A stretch of DNA of 42,231 nt. Origin: Pseudomonadota bacterium. GTDB lineage: Bacteria > Pseudomonadota > Gammaproteobacteria > Burkholderiales > Sulfuriferulaceae. A program made the translations under genes and the position numbers. The stretch covers positions 1 through 42,231 of the forward strand of contig JAJZUW010000005.1 in the NCBI GenBank assembly GCA_021845925.1, read 5' to 3'. Below, one piece after another: positions 34,393 through 42,231 of this stretch; within the stretch, counting starts at the first letter, position 1, and each line of letters starts with the position of its first letter. Under the pieces are notes generated by a model, which saw nothing but the letters and a program-made list of their open reading frames with translations, made no database searches and was not told where the DNA came from.

Positions 34393-35550
34393 ATGTTCGG
34401 TGTTGTGGTTGATCTGACCTGGGCTGCTGCGGCCATCGGTATGGCCTGGTTGACAGCAGGTGTTCTGATCAGGTGTTTTGGGGCACCAGCACCCATGGGA
34501 CGCTATCATTCGCTGGATGGATTGCGCGGCATGCTGGCGGTATCCGTGATGATTCACCATTCTGCCATCTGGTACGGCTATGCGACAACTGGCAACTGGT
34601 TGCTTCCGGGTTCTTCTGTCTACGCCGAGCTGGGACAGGGCAGCGTGCTCATGTTTTTCATGATTACCAGTTTCCTGTTTGTCAGCAAACTCATTCATGC
34701 GAAAGACGGTGTGGACTGGCTGCATATGCTCGTCTCGCGAATCATGCGACTGACGCCTTTATACTGGTTTGCCATGCTGTGCATGTTCTGCATGGTGGGC
34801 ATGCTGACCAGGTGGCAATTGCACGAACCTGCCGCATTGTTGTTCGATCAGGCTGAAGTCTGGCTTGGCTATACTGTTTCTGGTTTTCCAGATATCAATC
34901 ATCTGGCAAACACTGGCCATCTGGTGGCAGACGTTACCTGGACACTGGTTTACGAATGGATGTTTTATCTGGCTTTGCCGTTGCTGGCCTGGCTGATGGG
35001 GCGCAAGCCGGGATTGTTGCCACTACTGTTCAGCATACTGGTGTTGTGGTGGATGTTTGACCGGTGGCATCCGAATCTGCGCATGGTGGTCGTGTTTGTC
35101 ATGGGTGGATTGACTGCTGTTCTGGTTGCCCGAGCGGAATGGTTCAAATCGTTGACAGCCTCACAGGCTGCCAGTTGGCTGGTTCTGGCCGGTATTCTGG
35201 CTGTGCTGGCTCTGTTTCATTCGGCTTATGACACCTGGCCGACACTGATTTTGTGGACGTGTTTTACGCTCATCGCCGGAGGCAATTCCTTGTTCGGTTG
35301 GCTGGTCCATCCGGCCACCCGGCAACTGGGCGACCAGGCCTACAGCATTTATCTGCTGCATGGCATGACCTTGTACGCGATATTTCATGGCGCGCTTGGT
35401 GAAAAGCTGATGCAGACCTGGACATTTTCAACGTATTGGGTTGTGTTGCTGGGTATCGTGCCGATCGTGACAATGCTTTGTTATGTAACCTGGCGCTGGG
35501 TGGAACAAGGCGGCATGCGGTTGGCGAAAAGAGTAATGGCGGCGGGCTGA
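34393..35550 (+). CDS. Acyltransferase 3 family membrane protein (OafA/YrhL-like)
   Basis: This 385-residue multi-pass integral membrane protein has about ten hydrophobic segments. The family signature is at its N-terminal part (SLDGLRGMLAVSVMIHHSA), with a conserved RLTPLYWF segment and a C-terminal QLGDQAYSIYLLHG motif. Such enzymes O-acetylate or otherwise acylate surface polysaccharides. Its position just upstream of the polysaccharide genes fits a role in decorating the product. The 168 bases to the next gene (35551-35718) hold no supportable gene; a 32-codon frame at 35590 has nothing to support it. Confidence 0.88.
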   Translation: MFGVVVDLTWAAAAIGMAWLTAGVLIRCFGAPAPMGRYHSLDGLRGMLAVSVMIHHSAIWYGYATTGNWLLPGSSVYAELGQGSVLMFFMITSFLFVSKLIHAKDGVDWLHMLVSRIMRLTPLYWFAMLCMFCMVGMLTRWQLHEPAALLFDQAEVWLGYTVSGFPDINHLANTGHLVADVTWTLVYEWMFYLALPLLAWLMGRKPGLLPLLFSILVLWWMFDRWHPNLRMVVVFVMGGLTAVLVARAEWFKSLTASQAASWLVLAGILAVLALFHSAYDTWPTLILWTCFTLIAGGNSLFGWLVHPATRQLGDQAYSIYLLHGMTLYAIFHGALGEKLMQTWTFSTYWVVLLGIVPIVTMLCYVTWRWVEQGGMRLAKRVMAAG

Positions 35551-35718: not shown

Positions 35719-36537
35719 ATGAACAAGTATGAAAGAAAAATGCTCGATATCTTGAAACGTGGCCGGGATGAATTTGGTTACGTTGGTGTCAAGGCTGAAT
35801 TTGAAGCTGAAGGCACCCGCACAGACGAGATGCTGAGACTGGTTGAAATCTCACGCAAAGCTGGTGTGCAGATAGGGCTGAAAGTGGGGGGGTGTGAAGC
35901 CATGCGCGATCTGATGGAAAGTAAACAGATTGGTGTGGAATACATTATTGCACCCATGATCGAGAGCACTTACGCGCTCAGTAAGTTCATTGATGCCAAG
36001 AATGCTGTGTATTCGGATGACGAACAGAAAGATACTAAATTTTTGTTCAACCTGGAAACTCAATCCGCTTTTACAATCATGGATCAGTTGGTCGTGGCTG
36101 CAGCACAAAAAAACGGTGCAGATGGCATTGTCTTCGGCAGGGTCGATTTCAGTCTGTCGCGTGGGATTGGTCGAGATGCGATCAATACCAGAGAAGTGAC
36201 TGATTGCTGTCTTGCCACAGCGAAGGCGTGTCGAGAAAAGGGGCTTGAATTTGTCGTGGGTGGAGGCGTTTCAATTGATGCGCTGGCTGTAGTCGAAGAA
36301 ATTCGCGCAGAGCATTTATCCCGTTTTGAAACACGCAAGGTCATTTTTTCCGCTAGTGCAACAGAACATGTTGATTTGCGGACAGGTTTGCTTGAGGCCG
36401 TTCATTTTGAATTGCTGTGGTTGCTTAACAAGCGAGAATATTATGGGGCTATTATCAGAGAAGATGCGAAACGTATCGAAATGCTCGAATCGCGCTGGAA
36501 GGTACTTTCTGGCGAGGAACTGTCAAATCTGGTCTAG
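35719..36537 (+). CDS. HpcH/HpaI aldolase / citrate lyase superfamily protein
   Basis: The 272-residue TIM-barrel protein has the superfamily landmarks [31 protein letters not shown] (the usual PMVE position), FNLETQSAF and FGRVDFS. Members form or cleave carbon bonds between pyruvate, oxaloacetate or an acyl-CoA and a carbonyl compound, using a divalent metal bound by acidic residues such as those in MIES and RVDF. The substrate is unknown. AAGGGA lies about seven bases before the ATG. It heads a tight plus-strand run with an SDR, a DHQ-synthase-like cyclase, an epimerase and a glycosyltransferase-like gene, so a role in building a sugar precursor is likely. Confidence 0.78.
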
Positions 36538-36554
36538 AAGTGGGGAGTAGACAA

Positions 36555-37259
36555 ATGCCCGCATTGTTACTGCTTGGAGCCAGTGGTGCTATTGGTCAAG
36601 CTTTGGCAGGATATTTCAACATGCGTGGGTGGGCTGTTACTGGAATCGCGCGAGCCGAAAAACCTGAACTTGATACGCGGATAGACTGGAGATTTGCCGA
36701 TTTTTCTGTTGGCAATTTCCAAACGGATATTCTTGATAACCAACAGGGATGGGACGCTGTTTGTTGGGCGCAAGGAGCGAATTGTAACGATAATGTGCGC
36801 GATGTGGATATTGACGCCCATCTTGATTTGTATCGCGCCAATTGTGTTTATATTCTTAAATCGTTAAAACTGTTACTGGATCGCGACCAATTGGCTAGAC
36901 CGGCTCGTTTGTGCATCATTAGTTCAATCTGGCAGAAAATTGCCAGACAAAACAAGCTGTCCTATGGTATGACCAAGGCGGCATTGCAAGGATTGGTGCT
37001 GTCTGCAGCGGCCGATCTTGCCAGTGACGGGCATTTGATAAATGCTGTTTTGCCAGGAGCTCTGGATACAGAAATGACTCGAAATAATCTTTCTGCGCAG
37101 CAGATTTCCATGCTCGCCAATGCAACGCTGTTTGACCGTTTGCCCCAGTTATCGGATGTCGCGGGACTGGTTCATTTTTTGTGTTCGGATAGTAACACTG
37201 GCATTACCGGGCAATTTATTGCAGCTGATCTGGGTTTCAGTCATGTCCGTATCGTTTGA
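36555..37259 (+). CDS. Short-chain dehydrogenase/reductase
   Basis: The 234-residue SDR enzyme has cofactor motif LGASGAIGQAL, active-site serine in IISSIW (S123/S124), and Y137 and K141 in YGMTK. An Arg a short way after strand 2 (IAR) may favour NADP(H). It should oxidise or reduce a hydroxyl/keto group on the intermediate made by the neighbours. GGGGAG at 36542-36547 selects ATG 36555 over the GTG at 36540. Its end overlaps the cyclase gene by 17 bases, which suggests coupled translation. Confidence 0.85.
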   Translation: MPALLLLGASGAIGQALAGYFNMRGWAVTGIARAEKPELDTRIDWRFADFSVGNFQTDILDNQQGWDAVCWAQGANCNDNVRDVDIDAHLDLYRANCVYILKSLKLLLDRDQLARPARLCIISSIWQKIARQNKLSYGMTKAALQGLVLSAAADLASDGHLINAVLPGALDTEMTRNNLSAQQISMLANATLFDRLPQLSDVAGLVHFLCSDSNTGITGQFIAADLGFSHVRIV

Positions 37260-38343
37260 AATTACTTCGAGTATTCAGAACTATCGTGTTGAAATTGCCA
37301 ATGGTTTGATACGGAATTATCGGCCGGACACAACGGATTATGTGATTTTATGTGATGCATTTTTTGCATCGGCACTGTCTTTGGTGCATGATAAAGTCAT
37401 TCCAATACAAGTGTCCGAATCCGCCAAAGGCCTGGATCAAATTTCTTCAGTGATTGTTTCGCTTAAGGAAGTAGGTGCGCTCCGTAAAACCTTGCTCATT
37501 GCTGTTGGCGGTGGGGTGATCCAGGACATTGCAACATTCACATCTTCCATTTACATGCGCGGGATTCCGTGGATTTATTTGCCAACCACGTTACTAGGAA
37601 TGGTTGATTCTTGTATCGGAGGAAAATCTGCGATCAATGTTGGGAGTTATAAAAATCTCGTTGGTAATTTTTATCCGCCTGGGAAGATTCTGATTGATCC
37701 TGCAGCTGCCGAAACTTTAGGCCAGGAACAGCTCGTCGCTGGCTTGTGCGAGGCTGCGAAAATCTGTTATGCAAGAGGACGGGAAAGTTTTGCTGAATAC
37801 CTTCGACTGTATGGTTTGCATGACCAGAAACTTCTAGGTTTGCAGGCCATCATCGAACTCAGTTTACGCAGTAAAAAGTGGTTTATTGAAAAGGATGAAT
37901 TTGATCGCCAGGAACGTTTGCTGCTGAATTTCGGACATACGTTTGGTCACGCAATCGAAGGTGCTGCAGGTTATCGCATCAGTCACGGTGTGGCAGTTGG
38001 TGTTGGTATGTTGGCTGCCGTTTATCTGGCAGGGCTCTTGCATGGTGGATCATTGCCTGATCGCGCACAGCAATTGAGGACTCATATCCTGTCTTTGCTC
38101 AATGAATCGGCTGGTCTGACAGATGTTATGGTTTCTTTATCGCCATTAGAACTATTTGATCGATTCGAAGCAGACAAGAAGCACACGGATGTGTGTTATA
38201 CGCTAATTGGTTTGTCGGCTAGCGGAGATTTGCAATTGTTACAGCTGCCCAAACTGCCAGAAAGCCGCACTCTTATCAATCAGGTATTTGGCGAGATTGT
38301 GACAAACGAATTCTGGGAACGTGGTTTTTCTCCGCTGGAATGA
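37243..38343 (+). CDS. 3-dehydroquinate-synthase-like sugar phosphate cyclase
   Basis: The 366-residue protein has the DHQ synthase fold. Conserved positions include GGG at 89-91, the YMRG arginine, PTTLL, K128 in GGKSAIN, E170 and K173 in CEAAK, R225, H232 and H236 in NFGHTFGHA, H248, and DKK near residue 315. The zinc ligands (E170, H232 or H236, and H248) and the NAD site are retained. It departs from AroB at GGGVVGD (here GGGVIQD), NHPLGKN (here NVGSYKN) and HGEAV (here HGVAV). It is therefore likely an active cyclase for a substrate other than DAHP, rather than the housekeeping aroB. The ATG at 37243 lies in the SDR tail. Confidence 0.84.
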   Translation: MSVSFEITSSIQNYRVEIANGLIRNYRPDTTDYVILCDAFFASALSLVHDKVIPIQVSESAKGLDQISSVIVSLKEVGALRKTLLIAVGGGVIQDIATFTSSIYMRGIPWIYLPTTLLGMVDSCIGGKSAINVGSYKNLVGNFYPPGKILIDPAAAETLGQEQLVAGLCEAAKICYARGRESFAEYLRLYGLHDQKLLGLQAIIELSLRSKKWFIEKDEFDRQERLLLNFGHTFGHAIEGAAGYRISHGVAVGVGMLAAVYLAGLLHGGSLPDRAQQLRTHILSLLNESAGLTDVMVSLSPLELFDRFEADKKHTDVCYTLIGLSASGDLQLLQLPKLPESRTLINQVFGEIVTNEFWERGFSPLE

Positions 38344-38347
38344 ATGC

Positions 38348-39328
38348 ATGATCGGAAGAGCTGAAAAAATAGTGACTTCACTCTGCGACTGTGATGACAG
38401 ATTTGTCATTACAGGAGCAACCGGCTGGCTTGGTCAGGCCTTGCTTGCTCTGCTTTCGGAAACATGTGGAGAAGTGTTGGAGCAACGCGTCCTCTTGGGA
38501 GGTTCTGTATCACGGCAGATCACTGCTCCCGATGGCAGAAATTTTCCGGTGCACGCATTGGATGAATTGGTCCTGCATTTGGATGATCGGCCAGTGATGC
38601 TGTTTCATTTTGCTTTCTTGACAAAAGACAAGGTTGGCCGCTTGTCTGATACGAATTATGTTGCATATAATAAACAGATCGCGAGTGTTATTGGCGAACT
38701 GGCAACTAAAAGCTGCGTAAAGGGGATCGTGCTGGCTTCTTCAGGTGCTGTATATGATCATTTGGAAGAGAAATCTCGCGATGATTCAGCAAATCTGTAT
38801 GGTCGGCTGAAATTCGAAGACGAGCAATTGTTTGGCGATATTTGTGAGCGGCGTCGGATTCCGCTGGTTATTCCGCGCATATTCAACCTCGCTGGCCCGT
38901 ATATCAACAAGTTTCAATCTTATGCATTGTCGTCAATCATTGTCAACGTGTTGCGCGGACAGGCTGTTAATTTAAAGGCTTCGCACAAAGTCTGGCGATC
39001 TTATGTGCATGTGCGTGATGTATTGAAATTATCCCTATCGCTTTTGCAGGATAGGAATACAGGTACGTTGTTGTTCGACACAGCTGGTGAGGAAGTTGTC
39101 GAACTTGGTGAGCTGGCCTTAAGAACATGTTTAGAATTGGGCAGGCCAGATATCGGGATTAATCGACCTGAATTGGTCAGTACAACTGAGGATCGTTATG
39201 TTGGGGATGGAACACTTTTTCAACATTTGCTGAAAACTCACGGTATACAACCCAACTCATTGTCAACGCAGATACGTGATAGCGCAGAGTGGATTGCAGC
39301 AACGTTGGAAAGATCCAGTCATGGCTGA
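38348..39328 (+). CDS. NAD-dependent epimerase/dehydratase family protein
   Basis: This 326-residue extended SDR has cofactor motif ITGATGWLGQ, active-site SSGAVY (S131/S132), and catalytic Y151 and K155 (YGRLK). The middle and C-terminal parts (PRIFNLAGPYIN, then RSYVHVRDV) follow the nucleotide-sugar epimerase/dehydratase pattern. The first glycine motif lies at residues 23-29, after a 20-residue N-terminal extension. Substrate unknown. The start at 38348 follows the cyclase stop by four bases, and its last eight bases overlap the next gene. Confidence 0.84.
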   Translation: MIGRAEKIVTSLCDCDDRFVITGATGWLGQALLALLSETCGEVLEQRVLLGGSVSRQITAPDGRNFPVHALDELVLHLDDRPVMLFHFAFLTKDKVGRLSDTNYVAYNKQIASVIGELATKSCVKGIVLASSGAVYDHLEEKSRDDSANLYGRLKFEDEQLFGDICERRRIPLVIPRIFNLAGPYINKFQSYALSSIIVNVLRGQAVNLKASHKVWRSYVHVRDVLKLSLSLLQDRNTGTLLFDTAGEEVVELGELALRTCLELGRPDIGINRPELVSTTEDRYVGDGTLFQHLLKTHGIQPNSLSTQIRDSAEWIAATLERSSHG

Positions 39329-40445
39329 TTATGGACAGAAGTCCCCTTTGGAGGTGGGGGAAAGCCTGCTGGCAGAAGTGTCATGGTTACTGCCTGAAAA
39401 GAAGGGGCACTCATACTACCTGGTAGCACCTCGGTACACCCGCATGTCAGCCGGTATCAAGATCATGTATCTTCTATGTCATGCCTTGAATTCGCTGGGG
39501 CAGAGAGCGTATATGGTGACTAGGCCTTATACCCCGGCGAAGCTTGCCACAAATCCTGAATTAAATACCCCTTTGTTGACTAAATCGGTGTTTGATTATG
39601 ATTTTGAACAAGGGTTGACACCGATAGTAATCTATCCGGAAATTGTGGCCGGTAATCCACTGAATGCATCCGTTGTCGTGCGATATGTTATGAATGTGCC
39701 GGGGCTTCTGGGTGGAGAAACAACTTACGAAGAGTCGGAATACTGTATTGCATATTCTGCAGAATTGGCTCGTCAGGTTAAAAACTGCCGGATGAGCCTT
39801 TTTTTTCCTGCTTCTGATCCCCGAATCTATTATCCTGATCCTGGAATTAAGCGGAGTGGAGGATGTTTCTATGCTGCAAAGTATAGAAAATTTCACGGAG
39901 GAAAGCTTTTTCCCATTACAGATGGATGTATTGAAATAACCCGTGATGAAGCGAATTCACAGACAGCTGAACAGATAGCGGACATTTTTAGACGATCTGA
40001 AGTGTTCTATGCTTATGAAAATACCGCGTTGGCGATTGAGGCAGTGTTGTGTGGTTGCCCGGTTGTTTTTTTGCCAAACGATCATTTCAAGGACTTGATT
40101 GGAGTCGACGAACTTGGTCTGGATGGTATGGCATGGGGAAATTCTCCGTCAGAACTGGAACGGGCAAAAAATACTTTGACGAAAGGGCGTGAGCGCTATT
40201 TGAATTTGTTTTTACATGTCCGGGAAAAACTGGAAATTCTGATTTTAGAAACCCAAATCATGGCGGCAAAAAAGAAATATGAGAAGCGAATGAATATCCC
40301 TCAGTGTAATCCTCCAAACTTTCTTCTTCTGACAGGGATGCATTTGGAAACCATAAAAAATGTATATCATGACCTTGGTGCAAAGGAATTGGGAAGGACT
40401 GTTTTGAGAAAGATATTTTCAAAATTGAATGGACATCGCTCCTGA
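39321..40445 (+). CDS. Glycosyltransferase-like protein of a polysaccharide cluster
   Basis: The 374-residue protein is only loosely recognised. The N-terminal half contains SAGIKIMYLLCHALNSLG, a segment typical of GT-B glycosyltransferases, and the C-terminal part has YAYENTALAIEAVLCGCPVVFLP, like the donor-binding region of that class. Neither a full GT4 motif nor a signal peptide is visible. GGAAAG at 39307-39312 supports ATG 39321, which overlaps the epimerase end by eight bases. It likely transfers the sugar made by the preceding genes, but that is inference. Confidence 0.62.
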   Translation: MADYGQKSPLEVGESLLAEVSWLLPEKKGHSYYLVAPRYTRMSAGIKIMYLLCHALNSLGQRAYMVTRPYTPAKLATNPELNTPLLTKSVFDYDFEQGLTPIVIYPEIVAGNPLNASVVVRYVMNVPGLLGGETTYEESEYCIAYSAELARQVKNCRMSLFFPASDPRIYYPDPGIKRSGGCFYAAKYRKFHGGKLFPITDGCIEITRDEANSQTAEQIADIFRRSEVFYAYENTALAIEAVLCGCPVVFLPNDHFKDLIGVDELGLDGMAWGNSPSELERAKNTLTKGRERYLNLFLHVREKLEILILETQIMAAKKKYEKRMNIPQCNPPNFLLLTGMHLETIKNVYHDLGAKELGRTVLRKIFSKLNGHRS

Positions 40446-40575: not shown

Positions 40576-41625
40576 TCAACGTCTTGTCCTGGAGTATATG
40601 TTCTTGATGGCGGGCAAGATGATGTTCCTTGCTGCTTTGATAAATGGATTGAATTTCATTTTTTTGATTGTTTCCGACTGTTTAATCAGGTCTGTAACAA
40701 GTTTGTTAAAGATTGCCGGATCGATTTTTTTTGATGAATTATTCATTTTGACCAGCTTGTTCAGCCATGTAATTATTTCATCAAATTCCTGGCGTGAAAT
40801 TGCATCAATAATTCCATCAGGCAATAGTCGAATCTTTGTGTGAATTTCTAGTTCGTGTTCCGTGAATGAAAATCCGAAGTGCGATAATGCCTGCCGTTTT
40901 AATTCTATTTCTTCCTTGCGTAATGCTTCCATATTTTTTGCGCCATCGCTTTCACTATGAATCCGATATGCGCAAAGTTCGTCCTGGATGTTATGGTATT
41001 TTATCTTTTCAATAAAATTTAAATTCGTCAGGTAGTCGTTTCCAAATTGAAATTTATTATAAAAGCCAAGACCGTGATTGTTGATTTGCTGTGTTCTGAA
41101 AGCGATTGCTGGTGAGTGCATAACCCACCAGAATACCAGGTTTGCTCGAATTTCTTCATGTTTTTCAGGCTTTTTGTGAATTGTTTCTGGTTTTGGTTTT
41201 GTTGATGTGCTTCTATCATGCCAGAAGGAGCGGTAGGCACAACTGCATGCCCCTAGTTCGGGATCGTTTTCAAAAGCATTTATTTGTTTTTCAAGCCTGT
41301 TTTTATAACTGATGTCATCAGAATGCTGCAAGGCAAAATATGGAGTTGTGATTTTTTTTACAAAGTCATCAATTCTGGCGGTTGGATGTACCCCGATATA
41401 GGAATGTAATGATATTCTTTCGTCACGAACTGCATATGCCTTCGCAATATCAATTGTTGCATCTTTTGAGCCTCCGTCCAAAATGGCTAGGTGAAGGTTT
41501 TGAACGGTTTGTTCAAGAATGCTTTCGATTGATTCAGCTAAAAATCTGGCGGAATTGTATGTTGGAATGATAACTGTTATTTTGTCATCTTCTTTCATGA
41601 TGGAAATACTTTCTGGTTTGATCAT
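40576..41625 (-). CDS. Family 2 glycosyltransferase
   Basis: This 349-residue GT-A fold glycosyltransferase has N-terminal ITVIIPTYNSARFLAESIES, a DGGSKDATI segment and the metal-binding SDD (LQHSDDISYKNR). The C-terminal region is Lys/Ile-rich and has no clear transmembrane helix. It transfers a nucleotide-activated sugar in surface polysaccharide assembly; donor unknown. ATG 41625 is chosen because AGGA lies seven bases upstream; frames to 41691 and 41598 are alternatives. It is the only minus-strand gene of the cluster and the most AT-rich: 40681-40740 has 18 G+C of 60, compared with 36 of 60 in the ileS stretch 7561-7620. This points to separate acquisition. Confidence 0.88.
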   Translation of the reverse strand: MIKPESISIMKEDDKITVIIPTYNSARFLAESIESILEQTVQNLHLAILDGGSKDATIDIAKAYAVRDERISLHSYIGVHPTARIDDFVKKITTPYFALQHSDDISYKNRLEKQINAFENDPELGACSCAYRSFWHDRSTSTKPKPETIHKKPEKHEEIRANLVFWWVMHSPAIAFRTQQINNHGLGFYNKFQFGNDYLTNLNFIEKIKYHNIQDELCAYRIHSESDGAKNMEALRKEEIELKRQALSHFGFSFTEHELEIHTKIRLLPDGIIDAISRQEFDEIITWLNKLVKMNNSSKKIDPAIFNKLVTDLIKQSETIKKMKFNPFIKAARNIILPAIKNIYSRTRR

Positions 41626-41820
41626 CAGGATTCCTGAAAATTGTACTGATCGTGCTTTCTGATCAAAGTGCATATGTGATTGTAATGACACAGAATTTTT
41701 TGCTCAGGACGCAAAAGTAGCGGGTCCTTCGTAGATGGGCTTGTTCAAATTTGTCGGGGAAGTTCTCTGTGTCCATTGTTCATGTAGAATGGCTGATTTA
41801 ATGTTGTGGTTGCTTAGGTT

Positions 41821-42231
41821 ATGAAATGTATCATTCTTGCCGGTGGGTTGGGTACTCGCTTAAGTGAAGAGACAACCTTGCGTCCCAAGCCTATGGTTGA
41901 AATTGGTGGTAAGCCTATCCTTTGGCACATCATGAAGCTGTATTCTCATCATGGACTGAATGAGTTCGTGATCTGCCTGGGATACAAGGGGTATGTCATC
42001 AAGGAATATTTTGCCAACTATTTCTTGCATACCTCCGATGTAACATTCGACATGGTTAACAATCGCATGGAAGTTCATCAGAACAACGCTGAGCCGTGGC
42101 GGGTAACCCTTGTAGACACTGGTGATCTGACGCAGACCGGCGGTCGTTTGCGACGGGTAAGGGATTACGTTGGCGATGATGTTTTTTGCATGACCTATGG
42201 CGATGGTGTTGGTAATATCGATATCACCAGC
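41821..42231 (+). CDS. rfbF: Glucose-1-phosphate cytidylyltransferase, 5' part
   Basis: The first 137 codons are present and the gene continues beyond the window. The enzyme makes CDP-glucose from CTP and glucose-1-phosphate, the entry to CDP-3,6-dideoxyhexoses such as abequose, tyvelose and ascarylose. The nucleotidyltransferase motif [13 protein letters not shown], then [16 protein letters not shown] and the metal-binding TYGDGVG are all visible and specific for the RfbF group. The ribosome binding site is weak (TTAGG). The upstream 41626-41820 holds its promoter and that of the divergent GT2 gene. Confidence 0.93.

Follow-up and report, generated by a model that had tools for sequence, protein, structure and literature searches.

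Gene content of the locus

The window analysed here is a 42,231-nucleotide stretch of DNA from a Pseudomonadota bacterium (assembly GCA_021845925.1, contig JAJZUW010000005.1, positions 1 to 42,231), in which five plus-strand genes at 35719-40445 specify a divergent aldolase (ALD), a short-chain dehydrogenase/reductase (SDR), an enzyme of the 3-dehydroquinate (DHQ) synthase fold (CYC), an epimerase/dehydratase-family protein (EPI) and a possible glycosyltransferase. A preliminary description of this DNA had treated the five as a single unit on account of their spacing, and both coordinates and start codons bear this out, with, in order, a gap of 17 bases, an overlap of 17, a gap of 4 and an overlap of 8. 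That they form one functional unit is likewise supported; the block was, however, ended too soon, as genes for RfbF, RfbG, RfbH and a thiamine diphosphate (ThDP) enzyme lie downstream, with glycosyltransferase genes coming after the ThDP gene on the same contig. The features are as follows.

34393..35550, plus strand: acyltransferase-3 family membrane protein, possible O-antigen acyltransferase (PF01757, 79.3 bits)
35719..36537, plus strand: ALD, divergent HpcH/HpaI-fold aldolase (PF03328, 23.8 bits, and predicted fold)
36555..37259, plus strand: SDR-family reductase, ATG at 36555 (PF13561, 78.9 bits)
37243..38343, plus strand: CYC, DHQ-synthase-fold, putative NAD-type phospholyase of a separate clade (PF01761, 120.5 bits; PF24621, 82 bits)
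38348..39328, plus strand: EPI, NAD-dependent epimerase/dehydratase-family protein (PF01370, 70.2 bits)
39321..40445, plus strand: fifth gene, possible GT-B glycosyltransferase, without a Pfam family (weak model-based matches)
40576..41691, minus strand: GT2 glycosyltransferase of the same polysaccharide region (PF00535, 77.7 bits)
41821..42231, plus strand, extending to contig position 42591: RfbF, glucose-1-phosphate cytidylyltransferase (TIGR02623, 473.8 bits, cut-off 300.25)
contig 42585-43655, plus strand, beyond the window: RfbG (TIGR02622, 513.4 bits, cut-off 278.45)
contig 43685-45016, plus strand, beyond the window: RfbH (NF011936, 749.4 bits, cut-off 423)
contig 45059-46825, plus strand, beyond the window: YerE-like ThDP enzyme, 588 residues (best PDB match 8rph)

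The acyltransferase gene, 168 bases upstream of ALD, marks the edge of the locus, and we are unsure whether it belongs to it.

RfbF, RfbG and RfbH each exceed the cut-offs of NCBIfam equivalog models. When compared with the PDB, the ThDP enzyme matched 8rph at 300 bits, the runner-up being an acetolactate synthase at 198 bits, and no NCBIfam acetolactate-synthase model was passed (best score 245 vs a required 738). Entry 8rph is JanthE, a YerE-like enzyme (PMC12188165). From an α-keto acid, YerE-like enzymes remove CO2 and transfer the remaining acyl group to CDP-4-keto-3,6-dideoxyglucose; for YerE the substrate is pyruvate and the branch has two carbons, whilst ErwE and MMAR_2332 favour longer hydroxylated keto acids, e.g. 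4-hydroxy-2-oxo acids (PMC12247030, section 6). Judged by its sequence, the locus very probably belongs to the YerE-type pathways that generate 4-C-branched CDP-sugars, and a pyruvate aldolase would be a natural source of hydroxylated α-keto acids for the ThDP enzyme. Plain yersiniose was rejected as the product, as ALD, SDR and CYC would then be superfluous.

The aldolase, EPI and the fifth gene

With 23.8 bits, ALD falls below the PF03328 gathering score of 25, a score that its relative in a Mycobacterium-genus genome (G391) surpasses at 37.7 bits. In a fold search of the PDB with its predicted model (mean predicted local distance difference test score, pLDDT, 91.8), the top three matches were HpcH/HpaI class II pyruvate aldolases (3qz6, 4b5w and 7et9; template-modelling (TM) score 0.57-0.58, E 6e-9 to 3e-8, 13-15% identity); pyruvate kinases ranked next, with a query-normalised TM score similar to that of the aldolases. 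E113 and D143 are invariant among 21 aligned relatives (alignment A2, from which rows L046 and L015 were left out and which includes six of nine known relatives), and they align with stretches of HpaI that presumably hold its metal ligands. We consider it probable, with some confidence, that ALD makes the acyl donor for the ThDP enzyme.

EPI had MoeE5 as its sole PDB sequence match (28.7 bits), and we propose that it may act as the reductase of the branch ketone, in a YerF-like role. The fifth gene had been described as glycosyltransferase-like. This is plausible in that the weak top matches of its low-confidence predicted model (pLDDT 55.5) were mostly GT-B glycosyltransferases, and unproven in that the fold search returned nothing at E ≤ 0.001. 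Our searches found neither a Pfam family nor a PDB profile match for it, and among six relatives there was a single weak PF00534 match (E 0.24).

CYC belongs to a clade separate from AroB

The best NCBIfam match of CYC was TIGR04425, 'AroB-related putative sugar phosphate phospholyase (cyclizing)', at 260.1 bits (curated cut-off 400), and it scored 231.4 bits against the aroB model TIGR01357 (cut-off 305). A second PF01761 gene is present in the genome (G000:C9:120116-120454) and clusters with AroB in our tree; as two DAHP (3-deoxy-D-arabino-heptulosonate 7-phosphate) synthase genes are also found elsewhere in the genome, the housekeeping route for these steps looks complete without the locus. 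In a tree of 43 rows, 28 CYC rows were split from 11 AroB rows, the genome's own AroB among them, with support of 100/99, and EEVS-like and aminoDHQS-like controls fell outside the CYC clade. The preliminary description had called for such a phylogeny with DOIS also represented; ours, with AroB, EEVS-like and aminoDHQS-like rows and no DOIS, sets CYC in a clade of its own. A second tree with more relatives and fewer outgroups separated 30 CYC-side rows from 6 AroB rows (support 100/100). Absent from the 43-row tree are L047 and L048 (AroB) as well as L054 and L056 (CYC, duplicates of L036 and L034); the second tree omits twelve rows (near-copies and long-branch outgroups), and the CYC proteins of L037, L019 and L040, found in neither tree, were covered by a motif scan, as was L009.

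All 34 rows of the clade share a signature, a Q within GGGxxQD together with a C within DxCxGxK, at positions where the 11 AroB rows have G/T and S/A; the motif scan agreed in eight further loci or re-checks. Numbered as in Aspergillus nidulans DHQ synthase, K250, R264, N268, H271, H287 and K356 are retained in all 34 rows (33 distinct sequences, window CYC included). H275 is retained in 33 of them, again including the window, with a gap in L043, whilst K197 is substituted in three. The EEVS-like control has M250, A264, D268, W356 and P275. Similarly, in alignments read by eye, ValA (4p53) and 5tpr have M250, D/A268 and P275, with ValA retaining an R aligned with 264. By its DHQ-synthase residues, CYC thus appears to be built like an enzyme acting on a 2-keto acid. 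A role as an EEVS- or DDGS-type cyclase of sedoheptulose 7-phosphate was set aside, as the window protein has K/N/H where 4p53 and 5tpr have M, D/A and P.

Recurrence of the gene set

A single scan by aldolase sequence alone gathered 35 ALD loci, from records whose titles name Proteobacteria, Actinobacteria, Acidobacteria and Elusimicrobiales, among others, and the neighbourhood is widely recurrent. For the scoring of neighbours, tblastn queries were taken exclusively from other loci, at a threshold of 90 bits or more. Although contig ends cut many of the 35, the partners found were the ThDP enzyme (26 loci), RfbH (26), RfbG (24), SDR (23), CYC (23), EPI (22), RfbF (21) and the fifth gene (8). 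Where at least 8 kb was available on both sides (21 loci), the counts were RfbH 20, ThDP enzyme 18, RfbF 17, RfbG 16, SDR 16, CYC 16 and EPI 13. Three of these 21 lack a flanking ThDP gene (L013, L014 and L045) and have one elsewhere in the genome, bringing the total to 21/21; of the five without a flanking CYC, three (L021, L035 and L045) have it just beyond the flank, giving 19/21, and L018 and L031 have no CYC, a single DHQ synthase gene being all that their complete genomes show. Both SDR and CYC were present in 25 of 37 related loci examined and lay adjacent on one strand in 24 of the 25, a linkage that exceeds chance. The independence of all these counts is lowered by near-copies (L013/L014; L015/L016/L017; L025/L028; L032/L033; L038/L039; and the mycobacteria).

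ALD itself is rare, being found in 4 of 150 relatives searched and, within the order, in 4 of 399 genomes (the window genome counted in both), and few of its relatives are in plasmid records (three). Within the window's genus, genome G008 (L010:6184-8734) has a differently placed CYC that scores 399.8 bits against TIGR04425 (cut-off 400) and an ALD 46% identical to that of the window, indicating that the system has two branches within this genus. A genome of the same order, G965 (L132:9679-16505), carries ALD, two ThDP genes, RfbF and RfbH, and perhaps makes two branch donors.

A mycobacterial locus with a probable link to caryophyllose

ALD was detected in 4 of 198 Mycobacterium-genus genomes, and a CYC orthologue (>680 bits; next match 205) in 6 of 248 (G152, G153, G154, G188, G317 and G391), all six of which also carry ALD. 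In G391 (6.45 Mb), which we reached as a genome of the same genus as M. asiaticum, RfbG and RfbH are followed by the order RfbF, glycosyltransferase (GT), ThDP enzyme, ALD, SDR, CYC and an FGGY kinase, with EPI ∼18 kb off. Among the M. marinum proteins, MMAR_2333 is described as a GT-A glycosyltransferase (PMC4403928) and MMAR_2332 as a YerE-like enzyme (PMC12247030), and mutants in MMAR_2331, 2332 and 2333 accumulate a precursor and make no caryophyllose (PMC5706390). The GT-ThDP-ALD order of G391 fits MMAR_2333-2332-2331, and from this gene order we infer that G391 is M. marinum and its ALD is MMAR_2331. Caryophyllose is 3,6-dideoxy-4-C-[D-altro-1,3,4,5-tetrahydroxyhexyl]-D-xylo-hexose (quoted in PMC5706390); its branch accordingly has CH2 at 2', OH at 1', 3', 4' and 5', and CH3 at 6'. 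In the available parts of the texts on M. marinum lipooligosaccharide (LOS; PMC12395582, PMC4403928, PMC13354803 and PMC4703794), neither the aldolase nor CYC as a DHQ synthase is named.

The FGGY-type kinase stands directly after CYC at L094:15295-16572, with counterparts in G152, G153, G154, G155, G188 and G317; a phosphorylation step may be made locally in these mycobacterial loci.

A second context for the SDR-CYC pair

Among 398 Pseudomonadota genomes, full-score members of TIGR04425 occur in four (L114-L117), with two more at 289-296 bits; these two are the ALD/ThDP loci L009 and L118, here reached via CYC and not via ALD. The SDR-CYC pair is also retained, with no ThDP gene in the stretch examined, by L114-L117 and by L101, a locus from the genus Mycobacterium. 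In four of them (L101:2131-8326, L114:4227-9425, L116:4285-10423 and L117:4573-8439) the pair stands beside genes for a GmhA-like SIS isomerase and an oxidoreductase of the Gfo/Idh family. Three of these loci, L114, L116 and L101, also encode a D-2-hydroxyacid dehydrogenase and have a CMP-ulosonate-synthetase-like gene, the latter passing one KdsB subfamily cut-off in L114 and being weakly PseF-like in L116 and L101. Only L101, among the second-context loci, has an ordinary HpaI-type aldolase. In the second tree, CYC rows from ALD/ThDP loci and from this second context are intermixed; the five rows there labelled 'ctx_ii_CMP' include L115 and L117, in which no CMP-transferase gene was seen.

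This second context is possibly a pathway to a CMP-activated deoxy-ulosonic acid. A product usable by both ThDP enzymes and CMP-ulosonate synthetases would most simply be a free 2-keto acid and not a carbocycle, although this is suggestive only. Extending the idea, the clade might consist of non-carbocyclising phospholyases that, together with the SDR, convert DAHP-like 3-deoxy-2-ulosonate phosphates to terminally deoxygenated open-chain 2-keto acids, the acid being spent as a ThDP donor or, in relatives, as a CMP-ulosonic acid; we offer this generalization tentatively, rating its chances a little short of even.

A further arrangement was seen on a Streptomyces plasmid (L103:1851-6731), where genes for a ThDP enzyme, a member of the DHQ-synthase family, a BadF-type ATPase and a protein of the inositol-monophosphatase family adjoin those for an NDP-sugar synthase and an adenylation-domain protein. 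The cyclase of this cluster retains K250, R264, N268 and H275, yet falls outside the CYC clade.

Proposed pathway to a long 4-C-branched sugar

We propose, with a probability of roughly 0.6, that the five genes supply the branch-building half of a pathway of the YerE type to a long 4-C-branched CDP-sugar for a surface polysaccharide. From the gene content, the clade and retained residues of CYC, the recurrence of the set and the matching mycobacterial locus, the reactions of ALD, CYC, SDR and EPI, their order and the final sugar would be as follows. RfbF, RfbG and RfbH, by the known chemistry of the families to which we assign them, would provide CDP-4-keto-3,6-dideoxyglucose. ALD would couple pyruvate to a four-carbon aldehyde, which is probably erythrose 4-phosphate, giving a 3-deoxy-2-keto-heptonate 7-phosphate that is the C4 epimer of DAHP. 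CYC, by transient oxidation and phosphate elimination, which would turn C7 into CH3 and C6 into a ketone, would release an open-chain 3,7-dideoxy-2,6-diketo acid with no closure of a carbocycle. The SDR would take the 6-ketone back to a hydroxyl, yielding 2-keto-3,7-dideoxyheptonate. The ThDP enzyme, by chemistry known for the YerE class, would decarboxylate this acid and attach the six-carbon acyl group at C4 of the keto-sugar. Finally, EPI or the SDR would reduce the branch ketone, and the resulting caryophyllose-type C12 sugar would be passed on by the neighbouring glycosyltransferases.

The atoms balance: pyruvate and erythrose 4-phosphate, after loss of phosphate, gain of 2H, loss of CO2, addition of the keto-sugar and gain of a further 2H, come to C12H24O8, which is caryophyllose, and 2-keto-3,7-dideoxyheptonate decarboxylated onto the C4 ketone, with one reduction, is its exact skeleton. 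By the usual Fischer rules, we read D-altro as placing 3', 4' and 5' on the same side, such that the tetrose-derived centres would have the D-erythro arrangement of erythrose 4-phosphate, with the aldol centre opposite to that of DAHP. The compound 3,7-dideoxy-D-threo-hepto-2,6-diulosonate was historically proposed as the precursor of dehydroquinate, and the product proposed for CYC would be its C4 epimer; an engineered aldolase has, moreover, taken the place of DAHP synthase. In ALD loci without SDR-CYC, the branch would end in CH2OH, as does that of gastriose, the sugar of M. gastri; caryophyllose, for its part, is also a sugar of Trinickia caryophylli. Two other candidate products were set aside: bradyrhizose, for which a literature search gave no biosynthetic route, and caryose, whose carbons do not map in any obvious way onto this chemistry.

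Several suggestions of the preliminary description can now be reassessed. Its view that the aldolase and DHQ-synthase-like enzyme echo the first two steps of the shikimate pathway is supported, as is its branched surface sugar; what it missed are RfbF, RfbG, RfbH and the YerE-like ThDP enzyme downstream. Of the outcomes named there as refuting it, those on the cyclase and the neighbourhood did not occur: CYC falls apart from AroB, the genome has a further aroB, and the gene set is seen again in many other genomes. A carbocyclic sugar or C7 cyclitol is disfavoured, given K/N/H in CYC in place of M, D/A and P, and given that the constant partner of ALD is a ThDP enzyme of a class that couples open-chain α-keto acids to CDP-4-keto-3,6-dideoxyhexose (PMC12247030).

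A number of observations nonetheless weigh against the proposed pathway. CYC retains all of the DHQ-synthase residues checked, so ring closure is compatible with its sequence, and the window CYC is 35.5% identical to that of G391 (287 aa) vs 40.6% to the genome's own AroB (207 aa), meaning that only tree and signature residues, not raw identity, set it apart from AroB. The gene set is also not invariable. ALD occurs without CYC in L018, L031 and L132 (20 kb in the last); L042 has ALD and none of the partners within an 8.5 kb contig; and a Novosphingobium humi plasmid (L059:13097-15777, a record nearly without annotation) has RfbF, RfbG and ALD with no match to ThDP enzyme, SDR or CYC in 31 kb. 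Conversely, four of the six best TIGR04425 genomes have neither ALD nor a ThDP gene in 8.7-16 kb. With regard to the mycobacteria, the N-acyltransferase (MMAR_2321) lies 8 gene steps from ALD in G391 vs 10 by MMAR numbers, and the FGGY kinase is beside CYC in 7 of 7 mycobacterial CYC genomes and in none of the other loci examined, the window included, so the phosphorylated substrate may differ. Lastly, CYC could act on a tetrose phosphate ahead of the aldolase. We regard the open-chain role of CYC and SDR as somewhat favoured.

Alternative explanations

The strongest competitor, which we nevertheless consider unlikely, is that ALD and CYC make a quinate- or cyclitol-like carbocycle that is reduced by the SDR and put on the polysaccharide, with the ThDP enzyme making a separate branched sugar. 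DHQ-type closure would require nothing beyond the catalytic positions that CYC retains, and ring formation is the rule in DHQS-family enzymes (PMC4426668); a dehydroquinate-like ring, however, is without the α-keto acid that the ThDP enzyme would use. In disagreement with this scheme, loci that lack CYC (L018 and L031) still have a ThDP enzyme together with ALD, so the ALD product seems to feed that enzyme. Furthermore, the LOS sugars of M. marinum quoted in PMC5706390 include caryophyllose and no cyclitol, though a matching locus has SDR-CYC, and the CMP-ulosonate-synthetase-like genes adjoining SDR-CYC relatives again suggest a free 2-keto acid.

Rather less probable still is a reversed order, in which CYC and SDR first convert erythrose 4-phosphate to a 4-deoxytetrose, to which ALD then adds pyruvate, arriving at the same final sugar. 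Its atom balance is identical, and loci with ALD and a ThDP enzyme and no CYC would just take another aldehyde; the retained K250, R264 and N268, however, indicate a substrate with a keto-acid end, and a C4 substrate would be unusual for the DHQ-synthase fold. That CYC is a spare or alternative AroB, with a catabolic ALD in an incidental setting of sugar genes, is highly improbable despite its 231 bits to the aroB model and its identity to AroB, given its sub-threshold score, separate clade, the AroB and two DAHP synthases elsewhere, the pairing with SDR and the co-occurrence with ALD in all six mycobacterial genomes; this reading is already largely refuted, and by score, tree and the second aroB a role as the housekeeping AroB was rejected.

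Comparison with known systems

The preliminary description held that a sugar made in this way would be new. Long 4-C-branched sugars, caryophyllose included, are already known; what did not appear in the literature searched is a DHQ-synthase-fold clade building the branch. No paper joining a DHQ-synthase homologue to caryophyllose was found (most subscription papers and one cited dissertation on longer-branched sugars lay outside the search), a search on TIGR04425 gave nothing, and one on aldolase and DHQS in O-antigen clusters, judged by titles, gave nothing on the point.

With the yersiniose (YerE) and JanthE systems the locus shares the genes for the CDP-4-keto-3,6-dideoxyglucose acceptor and a YerE-class ThDP enzyme; it would differ in that ALD, CYC and SDR first build a longer acid, whereas YerE takes pyruvate and leaves a two-carbon branch (PMC12247030). 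Erwiniose, compared by description only, likewise involves coupling by a ThDP enzyme, with a donor of aldol type (a 4-hydroxy-2-oxo acid); section 6 of the same paper, as available, makes no mention of a DHQ-synthase homologue for it. CYC has the fold and DHQS-type residues of the sugar phosphate cyclases (DHQS, EEVS, DDGS, DOIS and aminoDHQS) and is distinguished by a clade of its own outside AroB, in trees that covered all but DOIS and DDGS of these names, by its Q/C signature and by the proposed open-chain release. As for TIGR04425, the best NCBIfam match of the window CYC, its full-score members lie within the CYC clade, whilst the window protein reaches 260 of the 400 bits of the cut-off and the four full-score members have no nearby ALD or ThDP gene.

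The closest counterpart is the caryophyllose region of M. marinum LOS (MMAR_2331-2333), with which, via G391, the locus shares RfbFGH, the YerE-like ThDP enzyme, ALD, SDR, CYC and EPI. The window ALD and ThDP enzyme are 58% and 53% identical to their G391 counterparts; CYC (35.5%) and SDR (30%) differ more, and an FGGY kinase stands beside CYC in G391. More than 200 candidate YerE-type branching enzymes are recognized by their gene clusters, the donor being mostly unknown (PMC12247030). Should the proposal hold, the presence or absence of SDR-CYC would predict from sequence whether such a branch ends in CH3 or CH2OH, and the chemistry of DHQ synthase would have a third use, besides aromatic amino acids and cyclitols.

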